Assembly (NCBI GenBank): GCA_016781505.1 | Contig: JADDQF010000021.1 | Coordinates: 1 to 51,820, forward strand | DNA from: a bacterium | GTDB lineage: Bacteria > Chloroflexota > Chloroflexia > Chloroflexales > Kallotenuaceae | Direction: 5' to 3' | DNA: 51,820 nucleotides | Shown here: in pieces, positions 22,926 through 29,208 of the stretch | Numbering within the stretch: position 1 is the stretch's first letter | Layout: each line of letters begins with the position of its first letter | Notes under the pieces: generated by a model | What the model was told of the DNA's origin: nothing | Databases searched by the model: none | The model's input: the letters and a program-made list of their open reading frames with translations, nothing else | Made by a program: the position numbers and the translations under genes

Positions 22926-24170
22926 ATGGCGAACGCAGCGTATTCCAATCAGGTTGCGCAGGGTATTTCACAGCTGGCCCAGGTCAAAGCGGCGCTGGAA
23001 GAAGCGAGTGAGATTTTTGGACGGAAGGATGAGGCGGGGCGTACGCCGATCGTGGTTGTGCCGAAGCGGCAAAATCGTATTCGCTGGGGCCTGATTATTT
23101 TTGGCCTATTCATTGTCGGCGGCGGGGTTTTTGTTGGCGGCACGGCTGGAAACGCTGGCCTGGCAAGCTTGGCGGCCTTTTTTGGCGTGTTGTTTATCTT
23201 GTTCGGTCTGCTGCGCGCGCTGTATATTCAGGTGCCGGAAGGTGTGAACGCTCTGCTGGCCCGCGGCGGCAAGCATATCGGTACCGTTGGCGCTGGCCTG
23301 CATTTTGTGCCGCCATGGGTGGTGGTCTCGCATCTTGTTACCCGCCGCGAGGTTCCGTATGACGCGCCGGTGAAGGAAGCGCCAACCAAAGACAATGTGC
23401 GGGCAGCAGTTGACACCTCGATTACCTTTATGGTGACCGATCCGTACCGGTTCGTGTACGGCATCTCGGCGACCGGCTTTGACCAGGTGTTTCAAGCGGC
23501 GTGTCAAGACGCGCTGCGCTCGATGGTGCGCCTGGTGACCTCGGATCAGGTCAACGACCTTGCCCGGCAGGAAACCGCCGGCCTGCGCGAGTCGTTGAGC
23601 GCCGATGTTGAGCAGTATGGTGTTACCATTACCAAAATCAACATCACCGACGCACGGCCGCCCGCGGATTTTCTGCAATCACAAGAGGCCCGGCAGCTGG
23701 CGGTGCTGCAGCGCGCGGAGCAAGCGGAGAAGCAAGCGCTGGCCCAACGGCGTCAGGCCGACCAGGAAGCCTTAGCTCGGCAGCAGGTCGTGGCGCGGGT
23801 CGAGCGGGAACGCGAGGAGCTGCAAGTGCAGGTACAGCAGGCGGAGGCGCGGCGGCGCATTGCCGAGCTTGATGCCGAGGCCGAGGCTGTGCGTTTGCTG
23901 CGGGTTGAGGAAGGCCTGCGCAAGAATCCGCTTGCAGCCCAGCGTGAACTGCAGCTGGCCCAGTTTGAAGTGGCCCGAGCCTTAGCTTCAAATAGCCGGG
24001 CCGTGCTGCAAGTCGGTGGCGCCGACGACTTGGTGCGCGCTTTTGTGATGCGTGAAGTGCTGCACGACGCGGCGCAAGCTCCGGTAGGGGGCGCAACTGC
24101 TGACGGAAACGGCAAGGTCGTCGATCAGGGCGGGCCGGAACCAGTCGAGCGGCGTCCTGCGGCTCGCTGA
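22926..24170 (+). CDS. SPFH/band-7 membrane protein
   Basis: A 414-residue stomatin/flotillin-like protein. There are two neighbouring membrane helices (about 54-72 and 77-98), then an SPFH domain (about 100-250) beginning YIQVPEGVNALLARGGKHIGTVGAGLHFVPPW, and a long Glu/Ala/Arg/Gln-rich coiled coil (about 245-345) before a variable tail. Such proteins form large oligomeric scaffolds in the membrane. ATG 22926 is preceded by AGGAGG. The coiled coil and length are normal for the family. No NfeD-type protein, a frequent partner, is adjacent. A hairpin follows the gene. Confidence 0.9.
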   Translation: MANAAYSNQVAQGISQLAQVKAALEEASEIFGRKDEAGRTPIVVVPKRQNRIRWGLIIFGLFIVGGGVFVGGTAGNAGLASLAAFFGVLFILFGLLRALYIQVPEGVNALLARGGKHIGTVGAGLHFVPPWVVVSHLVTRREVPYDAPVKEAPTKDNVRAAVDTSITFMVTDPYRFVYGISATGFDQVFQAACQDALRSMVRLVTSDQVNDLARQETAGLRESLSADVEQYGVTITKINITDARPPADFLQSQEARQLAVLQRAEQAEKQALAQRRQADQEALARQQVVARVEREREELQVQVQQAEARRRIAELDAEAEAVRLLRVEEGLRKNPLAAQRELQLAQFEVARALASNSRAVLQVGGADDLVRAFVMREVLHDAAQAPVGGATADGNGKVVDQGGPEPVERRPAAR

Positions 24171-24333: not shown

Positions 24334-25203
24334 ATGACCCGACCTGAATCGATGCATAGCGACAATTCCATTGGACAATTGACCCAATTAGGCTTGAATA
24401 TCTACGAAGCCAAAGCGTATGTTGCGCTGGTTGGCCGAGATAGCTCATCCGCTACCGAAGTGGCGGAGGTGTCGGGCGTGCCTCGTCAGCGCATCTATGA
24501 TATTTTAGCCAGCCTGGTTGAGCGGGGTATGGCCATTAGCCGCCCAGGCCGGAACGGAACAAAATATGCTGCCGTTGCGCCATCCAACGCACTCGCTGGA
24601 CTGCTTGAGCGCGAGCAAAAACGACTCAACGAGCTGCAAGCCGTTACCACCAGCTTGACCACTGCTCTCGGTCGGCAATACAAGGCCGGCCAAGAAGTCA
24701 GCAGCCCACTGGAGTACATCGAGGTGCTGCGCGGGCGGCAAGCGATCAATGCCCGGTTTGCCGAGATTCAGGAGCATTGCAAGAAAGAAATCTTGATCTT
24801 TACCAAACCGCCGTATGCCATGCCGCCGCAGGAAGATCAAAACAAAGAAGAGGTGATCTCAACGCTTAAGCGGCAAATTGTTGCCCGCTCGGTCTACGAG
24901 TATAGCGTGTTAACGAACGAAGAAACGCGCCGGGCAGTCGAGCTGTTTGTGCGTAGCGGTGAAGATGCGCGTTTTGTCGAGCGCCTACCTCTCAAGCTGG
25001 TGATTGTGGACGAAGAGATCGTGATGTTTGCGATGGAGGACCCGATTGCCGGGCGAACCGAACTTACCATTATGGTGGTTGAGCAGAAACAGTTGGCCGA
25101 AATGATGAAGCTGGCTTTCGAAACCATGTGGGCCCGTGGTGATACGTTCGAAGAAGCGTTGATGCGGCTTGGCATCGGCGAAGTTTCCGAGCAACCTTCA
25201 TAG
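24334..25203 (+). CDS. TrmB-family transcriptional regulator
   Basis: A 289-residue regulator. The N-terminal winged helix (about residues 14-85) reads LGLNIYEAKAYVALV, SSATEVAEVSGVPRQRIYDILASLVERGMA, which is the TrmB pattern. A helical linker (about 90-115) leads to a C-terminal domain resembling the phospholipase-D-like/TrmB sensor domain (IEVLRGRQAINARFAEIQEHCKKEILIFTKPP). No sugar-binding signature was seen. It is encoded just upstream of the two secreted-protein genes that share an inverted repeat, which makes it a candidate for their regulator, but this is only a positional argument. ATG 24334 used; a second ATG six codons later is possible. Confidence 0.88.
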   Translation: MTRPESMHSDNSIGQLTQLGLNIYEAKAYVALVGRDSSSATEVAEVSGVPRQRIYDILASLVERGMAISRPGRNGTKYAAVAPSNALAGLLEREQKRLNELQAVTTSLTTALGRQYKAGQEVSSPLEYIEVLRGRQAINARFAEIQEHCKKEILIFTKPPYAMPPQEDQNKEEVISTLKRQIVARSVYEYSVLTNEETRRAVELFVRSGEDARFVERLPLKLVIVDEEIVMFAMEDPIAGRTELTIMVVEQKQLAEMMKLAFETMWARGDTFEEALMRLGIGEVSEQPS

Positions 25204-25368: not shown

Positions 25369-25396
25369 TTGACACCATGAAAGTGGTGCGTATAAT
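25369..25396 (+). promoter_or_regulatory. Consensus promoter with built-in inverted repeat, subtilisin gene
   Basis: TTGACA (25369-25374) and TATAAT (25391-25396) are perfect consensus hexamers 16 bases apart. The spacer and the end of the -35 hold an inverted repeat, CACCA-TGAAAG-TGGTG (25373-25388). The start codon of the subtilisin gene lies 30 bases after the -10, so the leader is very short. Confidence 0.85.
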
Positions 25397-25425
25397 TCGT
25401 GCAATCAAATGCAAGGATGTGCCCG

Positions 25426-27204
25426 ATGCGACGCCTCCACCTCATAGGTAAATTGTTTGTTTTGGCACTGCTGGTGCTTGGTGGCGCACTTTTGCCGGCA
25501 CGTACCATTGCCGCCTCGGTTGTGGTTGATCCTGTTCTGCAAAAGCAACTTGCTTCAGCCCTGCCGACGCAGCAACTATCGGTGATCGTTACCTTTGAGC
25601 AACAGCCGAGCGCCGCTGACCTGCAAGCATTGACCGGAACCGGCGCTGCTATCGCACCCCTACGGCACCTGCCCAGTGTTGGCGCACTAGCCACACCCGT
25701 CCAGCTTGAGCTGGTTAAGCAATTGACTGGAGTCCGCTCGATCTATGCCAACCGGCCTCTGGCGTATTTTCTGCGGGAAAGTGTACCGCTGATTGGCGCG
25801 CCGGACGTTTGGCAGGATTACGGCTTCAAAGGCGACGGGGTTGGCGTTGCGGTGCTTGATACGGGTGTAGATGCAACACACGCCGACCTTACATTAGGCG
25901 ACACCACTGTTGAAAATGTTAAGATCGCGGGCCTCCAATATTTCACCGGTCAAAATCTCAATACCCTGCCATTGCCGGAGTACTACCTTGCGGGCGTGCC
26001 AAACTCTGATACCACCGGCGGGCATGGAACTCATGTTGCCGGCATCATTGGCGCATCAGGCGATGCCAGTGGCGGTTATTACCAGGGTGTGGCGCCCGAA
26101 GCGGATTTGATTGGTTTGGGCGCCGGTGAAGGCATTGCCATCATGACTGCCTTGGCCGGCTTTGATTGGATCCTGGAACATCAAGCCGAGCACAATATTC
26201 GTGTTGTGAATTGTAGCTGGGGACCGGATCTACCGAACGGCTTCGATCCCGATGATCCGGTTAACGTGGCGACCAAACTGGTCCACGACGCCGGCATTGC
26301 AGTGGTCTTTGCGGCTGGCAACTCCGGGCCAAGTCCGAACACCATGAACTCGTACAGCGTCGCGCCCTGGGTGATTAGCGTGGCTGCGGGCGGTGATACC
26401 AGCGGCATTGATGTGCCAAGCAAAACTCGGCTGGCGGTAGCCGGTTTCTCTTCGCGCGGCATACCAGGCGACAGCTTGTATCATCCAACCTTAACCGCGC
26501 CCGGCTACCTGATCGTTTCGGATCGTGCCAGTACCGGCGCTGCCACAAACGCTACCACCACGGCTACCGACGCAGCCTTTATTCCACCTGAACATGTGTT
26601 ATCATACACCACGGCGAGCGGTACCAGCATGGCCGCGCCACACGTCGCCGGTGCAATTGCCTTGATGGTCCAGGCAAATCCGGGTTTGACGCCGGACGTG
26701 ATCAAGCGCGTCTTGGTTAACACGGCTACGCCGATGCCGAACTATCAGCAGTATGCGGCGGGCGCGGGCTACCTCAACGTCAAGGCTGCCGTTGACCAAG
26801 CCCTGCAAATCAAGAATATCCGCAGTTATCGTGATCCGCGCACGGGCAAGAGCAGCCAAGTGTACGATCAGACCTCGAATTGGACGGGCACGGTTGGTGT
26901 AAGTCTGCCGGGCAAAACCGCGAGCGATATACGGCAACTCACCGTAGCAGCCGGAACCGTCTCGCTCGATATCTCCGTTGACTGGAACCTGGCGGCCAGC
27001 GATCTCAATCTTTACCTGTATGATCCCCACGGCAACCTGGCAGCTCAATCGGAGAACATTCAGGCCGCTACCACGTTCGCAAACGAAAGCGTACACCTCA
27101 ACGAGCCAGAGGCCGGTACATGGACCGTTAAAGTGAGTGGGTCGTTGAACGCGCCACAGGAGTACAAGGCGGTCAGCAACGCCGTTGTGCGAGTAAATCC
27201 TTAA
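25426..27204 (+). CDS. Secreted S8-family (subtilisin-like) serine protease
   Basis: A 592-residue preproprotease. A signal peptide covers about residues 1-30, an inhibitor-like propeptide follows (VIVTFEQQPSAADLQAL...), and the catalytic domain runs from about 115 to 450. The triad is Asp145 (VLDTGVD), His200 (GGHGTHVAGI) and Ser401 (SGTSMAAPHVAG), with the oxyanion Asn299 in AAGNSGP. A C-terminal beta domain of about 110 residues (SLDISVDWNLAASDLNLYLYDPHGN...GTWTVKVSG) is a P/proprotein-convertase-like or pre-peptidase-type domain. ATG 25426 has AAGGA upstream; nine further in-frame codons upstream would sit ahead of the signal peptide. The promoter carries an operator-like inverted repeat shared with the LVIVD gene. 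Confidence 0.93.
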   Translation: MRRLHLIGKLFVLALLVLGGALLPARTIAASVVVDPVLQKQLASALPTQQLSVIVTFEQQPSAADLQALTGTGAAIAPLRHLPSVGALATPVQLELVKQLTGVRSIYANRPLAYFLRESVPLIGAPDVWQDYGFKGDGVGVAVLDTGVDATHADLTLGDTTVENVKIAGLQYFTGQNLNTLPLPEYYLAGVPNSDTTGGHGTHVAGIIGASGDASGGYYQGVAPEADLIGLGAGEGIAIMTALAGFDWILEHQAEHNIRVVNCSWGPDLPNGFDPDDPVNVATKLVHDAGIAVVFAAGNSGPSPNTMNSYSVAPWVISVAAGGDTSGIDVPSKTRLAVAGFSSRGIPGDSLYHPTLTAPGYLIVSDRASTGAATNATTTATDAAFIPPEHVLSYTTASGTSMAAPHVAGAIALMVQANPGLTPDVIKRVLVNTATPMPNYQQYAAGAGYLNVKAAVDQALQIKNIRSYRDPRTGKSSQVYDQTSNWTGTVGVSLPGKTASDIRQLTVAAGTVSLDISVDWNLAASDLNLYLYDPHGNLAAQSENIQAATTFANESVHLNEPEAGTWTVKVSGSLNAPQEYKAVSNAVVRVNP

Positions 27205-27227
27205 CCGCTTTACTGAACGTCGCTCTG

Positions 27228-27262
27228 CGCTGCTTCCCCTTATGGCGGAAGCAGCGTTTTTG
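27228..27262 (+). terminator. Rho-independent terminator after the subtilisin gene
   Basis: A 10-bp stem CGCTGCTTCC / GGAAGCAGCG (27228-27237 and 27247-27256) followed directly by TTTTT (27257-27261), 24 bases after the stop. Confidence 0.9.
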
Positions 27263-27380
27263 TTGCCCTCGCCAGTTCTCGGTCACCCAACCTTAGTCTC
27301 CTTACGTGCATCCTAGGCCCCTCCCATCGTGTTCATTTGTGAAACACTATCGCTTTGGGCGAACACCCCAAGATTTGTAG

Positions 27381-27410
27381 TTGACATCCGTTATGACCGT
27401 CTGCTATAGT
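27381..27410 (+). promoter_or_regulatory. Promoter in front of a non-coding stretch
   Basis: TTGACA (27381-27386), an 18-base spacer, and TATAGT (27405-27410). Transcription from about 27417 would run into a 400-base stretch with no supported gene before the LVIVD gene. A CACCA-N7-TGGTG repeat lies directly at the expected transcript start. Confidence 0.65.
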
Positions 27411-27416
27411 AGCTGA

Positions 27417-27720
27417 CAACACCACTGGCAATGGTGGCGCCTCATCCCCAAGCTGCCATTGCTGGGTTGGTGTAAGCGATACAAAGCGGGTCCGAAACGA
27501 CCTGTTTGCTGCGAAACAGCAGGCGCGTGAATGGAAGCGCTGGTTGTGAAGCATCGATTTTACTACCCACAACTACCATAAGCAGTTACTCGTCGCGATT
27601 TTGGATACCTCCTCATTTGCCCACTGCGCATCGTATCCCACTCCACAAATATCCTGCCTGCTTACGCACCCATAACTACCTCGCCGACTAAAAAATAGGT
27701 AAAGAGGACGCGATCAGGGA
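27417..27720 (+). ncRNA. Candidate structured RNA or long leader
   Basis: Downstream of the promoter at 27381 there is no convincing open frame, but several inverted repeats: CACCA/TGGTG (27420-27424, 27432-27436, and alternatively 27468-27472), GCAATGG/CCATTGC (27428-27434, 27456-27462), CTGTTT/AAACAG (27502-27507, 27514-27519) and GTTGTG/CACAAC (27543-27548, 27568-27573). These could fold into successive hairpins. The 3' end is unknown and no T-run terminator was found. It matches no RNA family that I recognise; it could also simply be a long leader. Confidence 0.3.
27420..27436. promoter_or_regulatory. CACCA-N7-TGGTG inverted repeat at a transcript start
   Basis: Same 5-base arms and 7-base spacer as the copies in the subtilisin and LVIVD promoters, but located just after the -10 box. 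Its left arm and an inner segment can also pair with sequence at 27456-27472, so this copy may act in RNA instead. Confidence 0.5.
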
Positions 27721-27750
27721 TTGACACCATGTCTAGTGGTGTGCTATATT
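27721..27750 (+). promoter_or_regulatory. Upstream LVIVD-gene promoter with built-in inverted repeat
   Basis: TTGACA (27721-27726), 18-base spacer, TATATT (27745-27750). CACCA-TGTCTAG-TGGTG (27725-27741) starts in the -35 box and fills the spacer, the same arrangement as in the subtilisin promoter. Confidence 0.75.
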
Positions 27751-27779
27751 TGCACCACTTCTAATGGTGGCACTATAAC
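27750..27779 (+). promoter_or_regulatory. Second, tandem LVIVD-gene promoter with the same repeat
   Basis: TTGCAC (27750-27755), 18-base spacer, TATAAC (27774-27779). CACCA-CTTCTAA-TGGTG (27753-27769) again begins in the -35 box. The unit looks like a degenerate tandem copy of the promoter at 27721, offset by 28-29 bases. Confidence 0.6.
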
Positions 27780-27822: not shown

Positions 27823-29208
27823 ATGTTGTCTACACCTACATTACTTCGGCGGATTGGTGGCGTTCTGTGCGCGCTCGTTCTGACCCTGGCGATCAGCCTA
27901 CCGGCAAAAGCAGACGTGATCGTAGGCGGGATCACGGTGGTGGACGGCGATGTTCCGCTGGTTTCAGATAACATCGACCTGCTGGGAACAGTTCCGGTTG
28001 TCGGCGCGATCAGCGCCAATTTCCGGGGCAACTACATGTTTGTTACCGGCGTGGAAGGCTTGTCCACCTTTGATATTTCGAATCCTGCCCTGCCGCTGCT
28101 GACGAGCTTTATCCCGCTGCCGCATTTCGAGAATGAAGACGTGTCGCTCGGCGGCAACTTGCTGCTGATCGCCAACGACAAGTCGGAAAGTGCAGCGGTT
28201 TTGTATGTGTTCGACATCAGCAACCCCGCAGCGCCACGTTTGCGTACTGTGTTCCCGATCGGCACGTCGACGATTGCCACCAGTGGGTTGCCAAGCCATA
28301 CCGTTACCTGCCTCAATGGCTGCGACTTCGCGTACCTGGCTGGCTCGCGTCGTGGAATTGGCATCCTCGACCTGCGTAATCCAGACGCTCCGGTGATCGC
28401 CGGGGAATTCAAGCCGCCGATTACCGATTGGGCCACACATGATGTCCAAATCGACTCACAGGGCATCGCCTGGATCGTCGGTGCCGCCGGTACGGCTGCC
28501 TATAACATTGCCGATCCGCGCAACCCGGTGCTGGTGGGTATGACGGACGCGTCGGCGACTACGGGACCGCTTAACGATTTTATTCACCACAACTCCATGC
28601 GGCTCGACAAGATCACGCCAACCGGCAAGCGGATTCCCTCCGATGTGGTGCTGATCACCGAGGAGGACTACGAGCGGCCTACCTGCCAGGACGCGGGCTC
28701 GTTCCAAACATGGAAGATTAACGGTGATTTGACGGCGACAACGCCGGCCGTATTGACAAACCTTGACTCATGGGCGACCGAGCTGGATGAGCTAACGCGT
28801 CTTGAGGGTAAATCACCGGCAACCGTGTTGTGCTCGGCCCATTGGTTTGACGAGGACCGCGGCTTGGTTGCGCAAGGTTGGTATGAGCAAGGCACGCGTA
28901 TTCTCGACGTGCGCAATCCGGCCGATATCAAGCAGGTCGGGTATTTCGTGATGCCGGTCACCGAGACCTGGGCTGCCTACTGGGCGCCGACAGATTCGAC
29001 TGGCCAAATTCTTTACACGGTGGACCTGGCGCGCGGAGTCGATATTCTGCGCATCCAACGGCCGGCTGCGGATGGTCCAGCTAAGAAGGCCCCCGTACGC
29101 AAGCAGTGGATCGGCGATGGCAGCTCGAACACGGCACCAGCTTCCGAGTTCTCGGTTGCACATACCTCGTTCGGCTGGGCTTGTCGCTTGCCAGACATCG
29201 GTGAGTAA
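27823..29208 (+). CDS. Secreted LVIVD-repeat protein (beta-propeller-like)
   Basis: A 461-residue exported protein. A signal peptide ends near residue 30 (SLPAKA). The body consists of repeats with the LVIVD-type pattern of a short strand followed by Asp-Ile/Val-Ser/Arg-Asn-Pro: TFDISNPALP, VFDISNPAAP, ILDLRNPDAP, AYNIADPRNP, ILDVRNPADI. Each repeat probably forms one blade. Several Asp/His/Glu residues (HHNSM, EEDYERP) could bind metal. The family is usually described as surface or choice-of-anchor proteins of unknown function. ATG 27823 follows TAGGAG. Two tandem promoters with an operator-like repeat lie upstream, and a hairpin follows the stop. Confidence 0.85.
   Translation: MLSTPTLLRRIGGVLCALVLTLAISLPAKADVIVGGITVVDGDVPLVSDNIDLLGTVPVVGAISANFRGNYMFVTGVEGLSTFDISNPALPLLTSFIPLPHFENEDVSLGGNLLLIANDKSESAAVLYVFDISNPAAPRLRTVFPIGTSTIATSGLPSHTVTCLNGCDFAYLAGSRRGIGILDLRNPDAPVIAGEFKPPITDWATHDVQIDSQGIAWIVGAAGTAAYNIADPRNPVLVGMTDASATTGPLNDFIHHNSMRLDKITPTGKRIPSDVVLITEEDYERPTCQDAGSFQTWKINGDLTATTPAVLTNLDSWATELDELTRLEGKSPATVLCSAHWFDEDRGLVAQGWYEQGTRILDVRNPADIKQVGYFVMPVTETWAAYWAPTDSTGQILYTVDLARGVDILRIQRPAADGPAKKAPVRKQWIGDGSSNTAPASEFSVAHTSFGWACRLPDIGE

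Follow-up and report, generated by a model that had tools for sequence, protein, structure and literature searches.

A conserved palindrome in exoprotease promoters as the predicted operator of an adjacent TrmB-family regulator in a family of Chloroflexota

The stretch of DNA analysed here (51.8 kb, in the following called the window) is part of a draft genome (G000) of 4.18 Mb in 159 contigs. Three of its genes are of interest, all on the + strand: trmB (24334..25203), which encodes a TrmB-family winged-helix regulator of 289 amino acids and is the proposed repressor; the gene of a secreted subtilase with S8 and PPC domains recognized by Pfam (25426..27204); and the gene of a probably secreted LVIVD-repeat protein (27823..29208; Pfam LVIVD, 38.3 bits). 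Since the listed start of the S8 open reading frame at 25399 is only 3 bp behind the -10 box, the in-frame ATG at 25426 was preferred. A gene for a Band 7 (SPFH) protein precedes trmB (22926-24170), and similar genes adjoin trmB in the related genomes G001 and G003.

Exact searches on both strands of the window gave one copy of CACCA-N6-TGGTG (25373-25388; 0.04 expected) and three copies of CACCA-N7-TGGTG (27420-27436, 27725-27741 and 27753-27769; 0.09 expected). Not one of 100 shuffled window sequences had at least three CACCA-N7-TGGTG copies, and a weight-matrix scan revealed no further 17-bp copies in the window. Thus, all four copies of the preliminary description were recovered, and its statement that the repeat is absent from the other intergenic regions of the window holds. 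The three N7 copies fit CACCAY-N5-RTGGTG and are palindromes of 17 bp with arms of six bases, whereas the copy at the S8 subtilase gene has 16 bp, one base less. In the promoters of secreted-protease genes of the family, the palindrome takes the form CACCAC-N5-GTGGTG.

The S8 promoter, as read from the sequence (25369..25396, + strand), is composed of TTGACA (25369-25374), a 16-bp spacer and TATAAT (25391-25396), and the LVIVD promoter (27721..27750, + strand) of TTGACA (27721-27726), an 18-bp spacer and TATATT (27745-27750). In both, the repeat indeed occupies the spacer and its left arm reaches into the -35 box, as had been claimed. The S8 promoter contains CACCATGAAAGTGGTG (25373..25388), the 16-bp form, and the orthologous promoters of G001, G002 and G003 contain the 17-bp form. 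The LVIVD promoter has two copies 28 bp apart: O1, CACCATGTCTAGTGGTG (27725..27741), in its spacer, and O2, CACCACTTCTAATGGTG (27753..27769), which covers the presumed start site. The remaining copy, CACCACTGGCAATGGTG (27420..27436), is an exact pattern match directly downstream of an upstream promoter (27381..27410, + strand; TTGACA 27381-27386, 18-bp spacer, TATAGT 27405-27410), just behind the -10 box and at the start of the transcript, where it had been placed before. This promoter is not conserved in G002, and a search for a hidden RNA or gene between the 27420 copy and the LVIVD promoter gave no Rfam match and no conservation in G002.

The main LVIVD promoter is conserved in G002, where an orthologue of the gene (L084:4290-5705) has the same promoter. 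The intergenic regions of the two genomes are otherwise poorly conserved, but the block ATTGACACCATGnnTAGTGGTGTGnTATAnTnGCACCACTnnTnATGGTG is common to both, O1 is kept, and the distance from O1 to O2 is again 28 bp. Such a pair is also found in a subtilase promoter of G005, 29 bp apart. Two tandem promoters had been assigned to the LVIVD gene, of which the second (TTGCAC...TATAAC) is doubtful: its -10 box, TATAAC, is not kept in G002, although its operator O2 is. This argues for O2 as an operator at the start site and against a second promoter; the LVIVD gene more probably has a single promoter with two operators than two promoters in tandem.

The distribution of the motif was determined by pattern searches in 158 genomes of the class, six from the same family (G000 to G005) and 152 others. 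In G000, CACCA-N6/7-TGGTG has 35 copies, many of them intragenic, compared with 10 for the reversed pattern, and in the sister genomes it occurs at about the rate of the reversed control. The bare palindrome is unspecific there and was rejected as genome-wide evidence. When the -35 box was included, TTGACACCA-N6/7-TGGTG gave 5 exact copies and no reversed control in the 4.18 Mb of G000, and each of the five is followed by a -10-like box. Four of the six family genomes together have 12 matches to TTGACACCAY-N4/5-RTGGTG, and the 152 other genomes of the class have 5; those of the latter that were read lie inside open reading frames. Hence, the genome-wide search at -35 boxes that the preliminary description had called for shows the motif to be rare and mostly placed before exported proteases, and the motif is conserved ahead of the sister-genome orthologues of the S8 clade and of the LVIVD gene. 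Operators are present in all five genomes with a TrmB orthologue (G000, G001, G002, G003 and G005), and G004 has neither a TrmB orthologue nor recognizable operator sites. From these comparisons the palindrome is almost certainly a real, conserved operator. One genome-wide copy of the motif (L014:1491-1527, contig C83 of G000) is part of a longer intergenic hairpin, GTAGCAACACCAC-GTCAA-GTGGTGTTGCTAC, and its sequence is more like that of a terminator than that of an operator.

In G000, the sites stand before three subtilase genes (that of the window, C6 and C53), the LVIVD gene, a fragment of an M4 protease gene (C62), the gene of a response regulator (C105) and a decayed gene (C135) that, in our own reading of the translations, appears to have a CARDB-like tail. 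In the other genomes they precede two subtilases in G001; in G002 the LVIVD orthologue and two subtilases, one next to trmB and one elsewhere (C57); three subtilases and one PPC-domain protein in G003; and one subtilase in G005. No good promoter-placed operator was found at other M4 protease genes. The promoters at L087:9490-11247 (C62) and L089:138-738 (C135) stand before genes without a 5' part, the former being the M4 protease fragment and the latter frameshifted; the loss could be either real decay or an assembly error. The small regulon of secreted proteins that had been suggested therefore stands insofar as most targets are exported proteases, but the response regulator of C105 is not secreted. 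Receiver-only response-regulator genes with an operator-like site upstream are present at L088:12440 (G000, C105) and L281:2053 (G002, C251); their products are 37% identical, and they are possibly a non-secreted member of the regulon.

To relate the operator to subtilase phylogeny, subtilase genes of the six family genomes were collected, their upstream regions were scored with a weight matrix and a tree was built. The window gene belongs to a 12-member clade with an SH-aLRT support of 99%. An operator was found upstream of 10 of the 11 testable clade members (nine strong, one weak) and of 3 of the 74 other subtilases (Fisher p ~1e-9), as scored by a matrix trained on several of the sites that it scores, most of which also match the stringent patterns. 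The twelfth member, with practically no upstream sequence, was left out, and the exception is the trmB-adjacent subtilase of G005, which has a degenerate site only. A regulon of all secreted proteins or of all subtilases was rejected, 71 of the 74 subtilases outside the operator clade having no site.

The window TrmB matches PF01978 with 69.8 bits (cut-off 25.6), and it scores 18.9 bits with PF11495, the C-terminal effector-binding domain (cut-off 22.2), for which the G005 orthologue reaches 21.2 bits. Its relatives in the PDB are TrmBL2 and TrmB. In the structure model the winged helix and a coiled coil are confident and the remainder is poor. The orthologues in G001, G002, G003 and G005 are 66 to 86% identical over the alignment, and trmB is directly 5' of the operator-clade subtilase in G000, G002, G003 and G005. 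The trmB promoter of the window lacks a good operator; in G002, a degenerate site, CACCCCCTTAAATGGTG, lies a few bases before trmB. A scan of genome contigs found two TrmB relatives in named records, both metagenome bins, one of them labelled Chloroflexota.

Order-level relatives from two other families each have a single TrmB homologue, which is 34 to 38% identical to the window protein and has the recognition helix PRQRIYD. Wherever the neighbours were read, this cousin trmB adjoins a gene for 4-hydroxyphenylpyruvate dioxygenase, and the loci (L099, L105, L106, L108 and L109; L287-L303) are unlinked to subtilases. CACCACT-N4-AGTGGTG or a close variant was found upstream of all 17 cousin trmB genes, just behind the -10 box at the loci printed, whereas distant TrmB paralogues with the helix PRSMVYEAL have no such site upstream. 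The exact 18-bp palindrome is present in one copy each in 16 of the 158 genomes (the reversed control in 7 genomes): 14 copies are at cousin trmB promoters, one is at the promoter of a homogentisate dioxygenase gene (L328:1288, in G027) and one is within an open reading frame. This arrangement suggests that the trmB genes next to 4-hydroxyphenylpyruvate dioxygenase form, together with homogentisate dioxygenase, a small regulon of tyrosine catabolism. The cousin sites played no part in forming the TrmB hypothesis and are thus an independent test of it; as they precede 17 of 17 cousin trmB genes, the half-site CACCAC is tied to this TrmB clade. The proposal that TrmB, the nearest candidate, is the regulator thereby gains strong support from synteny and from the half-site, and TrmB is very likely the protein that binds the palindrome. 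The operator has 18 bp in the cousins, 17 bp in the family and 16 bp at the window subtilase, and therefore a TrmB dimer would have to be tolerant of such changes in spacing or have become adapted to them. In the helix that follows the winged domain (the coiled coil), the cousin proteins have four residues more than those of the window family (alignment A1, columns 117-120).

How would TrmB act at these promoters? We propose that a TrmB dimer would place one recognition helix (PRQRIYDIL) in each CACCAY half-site of CACCAY-N5-RTGGTG and that, bound in the 16-18 bp spacer with the left arm over the -35 box, it would exclude RNA polymerase. At the LVIVD promoter the second copy, over the start site, would reinforce the block, and an effector at the C-terminal domain would presumably release TrmB. 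This model as a whole, in which the adjacent TrmB represses an exoprotease regulon through this operator, is likely from the sequence comparisons. All 18 tabulated promoters have spacers of 16-18 bp and mostly near-consensus boxes. Since such promoters should work unaided, the simplest role for a protein bound in the spacer is repression. The preliminary description had left the choice between a repressor and a MerR-like activator; the repressor is favoured because the spacers always have the normal length of 16-18 bp, and the MerR-like alternative fares poorly, as the spacers are not of 19-20 bp.

Three other explanations have to be weighed against repression by TrmB. That promoters beginning with TTGACACC carry the repeats by chance or owing to their composition might seem in keeping with the near-control rate of the bare palindrome in the sister genomes, but the shuffled windows never reached the three copies, the promoter-type pattern has five exact matches and no control in G000, and the motif is conserved across species in orthologous promoters; these comparative data refute chance, and its probability is practically nil. 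The operator could also be real and be bound by another regulator encoded elsewhere, with TrmB a mere neighbour. Adjacency alone is no proof of control, and the promoter of the window trmB gene lacks a clear site; however, the cousin trmB genes are preceded by the same half-site in every case, at loci without subtilases, and operators and TrmB orthologue occur together within the family, which makes a second regulator unlikely. Even less likely is MerR-like activation, in which TrmB bound in the spacer would distort the promoter. In its favour, the palindrome is located between the two promoter boxes, where it also lies in MerR promoters, and activation is known for some archaeal TrmB proteins (PMC4158304). 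But the promoters offer no long spacer to correct, the cousin sites are behind the -10 box, where binding blocks the polymerase, and when archaeal TrmBL1 activates, it does so from sites upstream (PMC4706686).

Repression by TrmB has a counterpart in archaea, where TrmBL1 and Tgr bind TATCAC-N5-GTGATA, the Thermococcales glycolytic motif, and act as repressors from sites located behind the elements of the core promoter (PMC4158304, PMC4706686). Both systems combine a TrmB-family winged helix with a palindrome of 17 bp whose six-base arms are separated by N5, four of the six arm positions are common, and repression from a site over or behind the core promoter is what we propose here. The arms are CACCAC instead of TATCAC, the promoters are bacterial with -35 and -10 boxes, and the predicted targets are exoproteases rather than sugar transport and glycolysis. 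Thus, with the same spacing and different arms, the operator would work like that of the glycolytic-motif regulon but is not that regulon. Among solved structures, those of TrmBL2 from Pyrococcus furiosus (5bqt, 5box, 5bpd) come closest in sequence and fold, with similarity along nearly the whole protein, but TrmBL2 has been described as a chromatin protein with broad DNA binding, whereas a specific palindrome with few sites is predicted here. MerR-type promoters share the palindrome between -35 and -10; they differ in having 19-20 bp spacers, and no MerR gene is implicated here. A described operator for a TrmB protein from Chloroflexota was not found in the open-access literature.

To our knowledge, work on TrmB regulators has been confined almost wholly to archaea and their promoters, with sugar metabolism as the main subject. 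From the present analysis we predict a regulon and the specific DNA code of a bacterial protein from this family known mostly from archaea. The analysis also supplies a list of candidate targets and, in Kallotenue, a culturable test organism that is probably of the same family as the window. It is possible, and we put it forward tentatively, that TrmB was rewired within one order, from autoregulation with tyrosine catabolism through an 18-bp operator in two families to a shortened operator in the core promoters of exoproteases. The shortening by one base would then have gone along with the four-residue gap in the dimerization helix, and the theme of protein and amino acid breakdown would have been kept while the targets changed. 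The system would offer a case of a regulator that keeps its recognition helix and half-site from family to family but differs in the spacing of the operator, its position in the promoter and the genes controlled.
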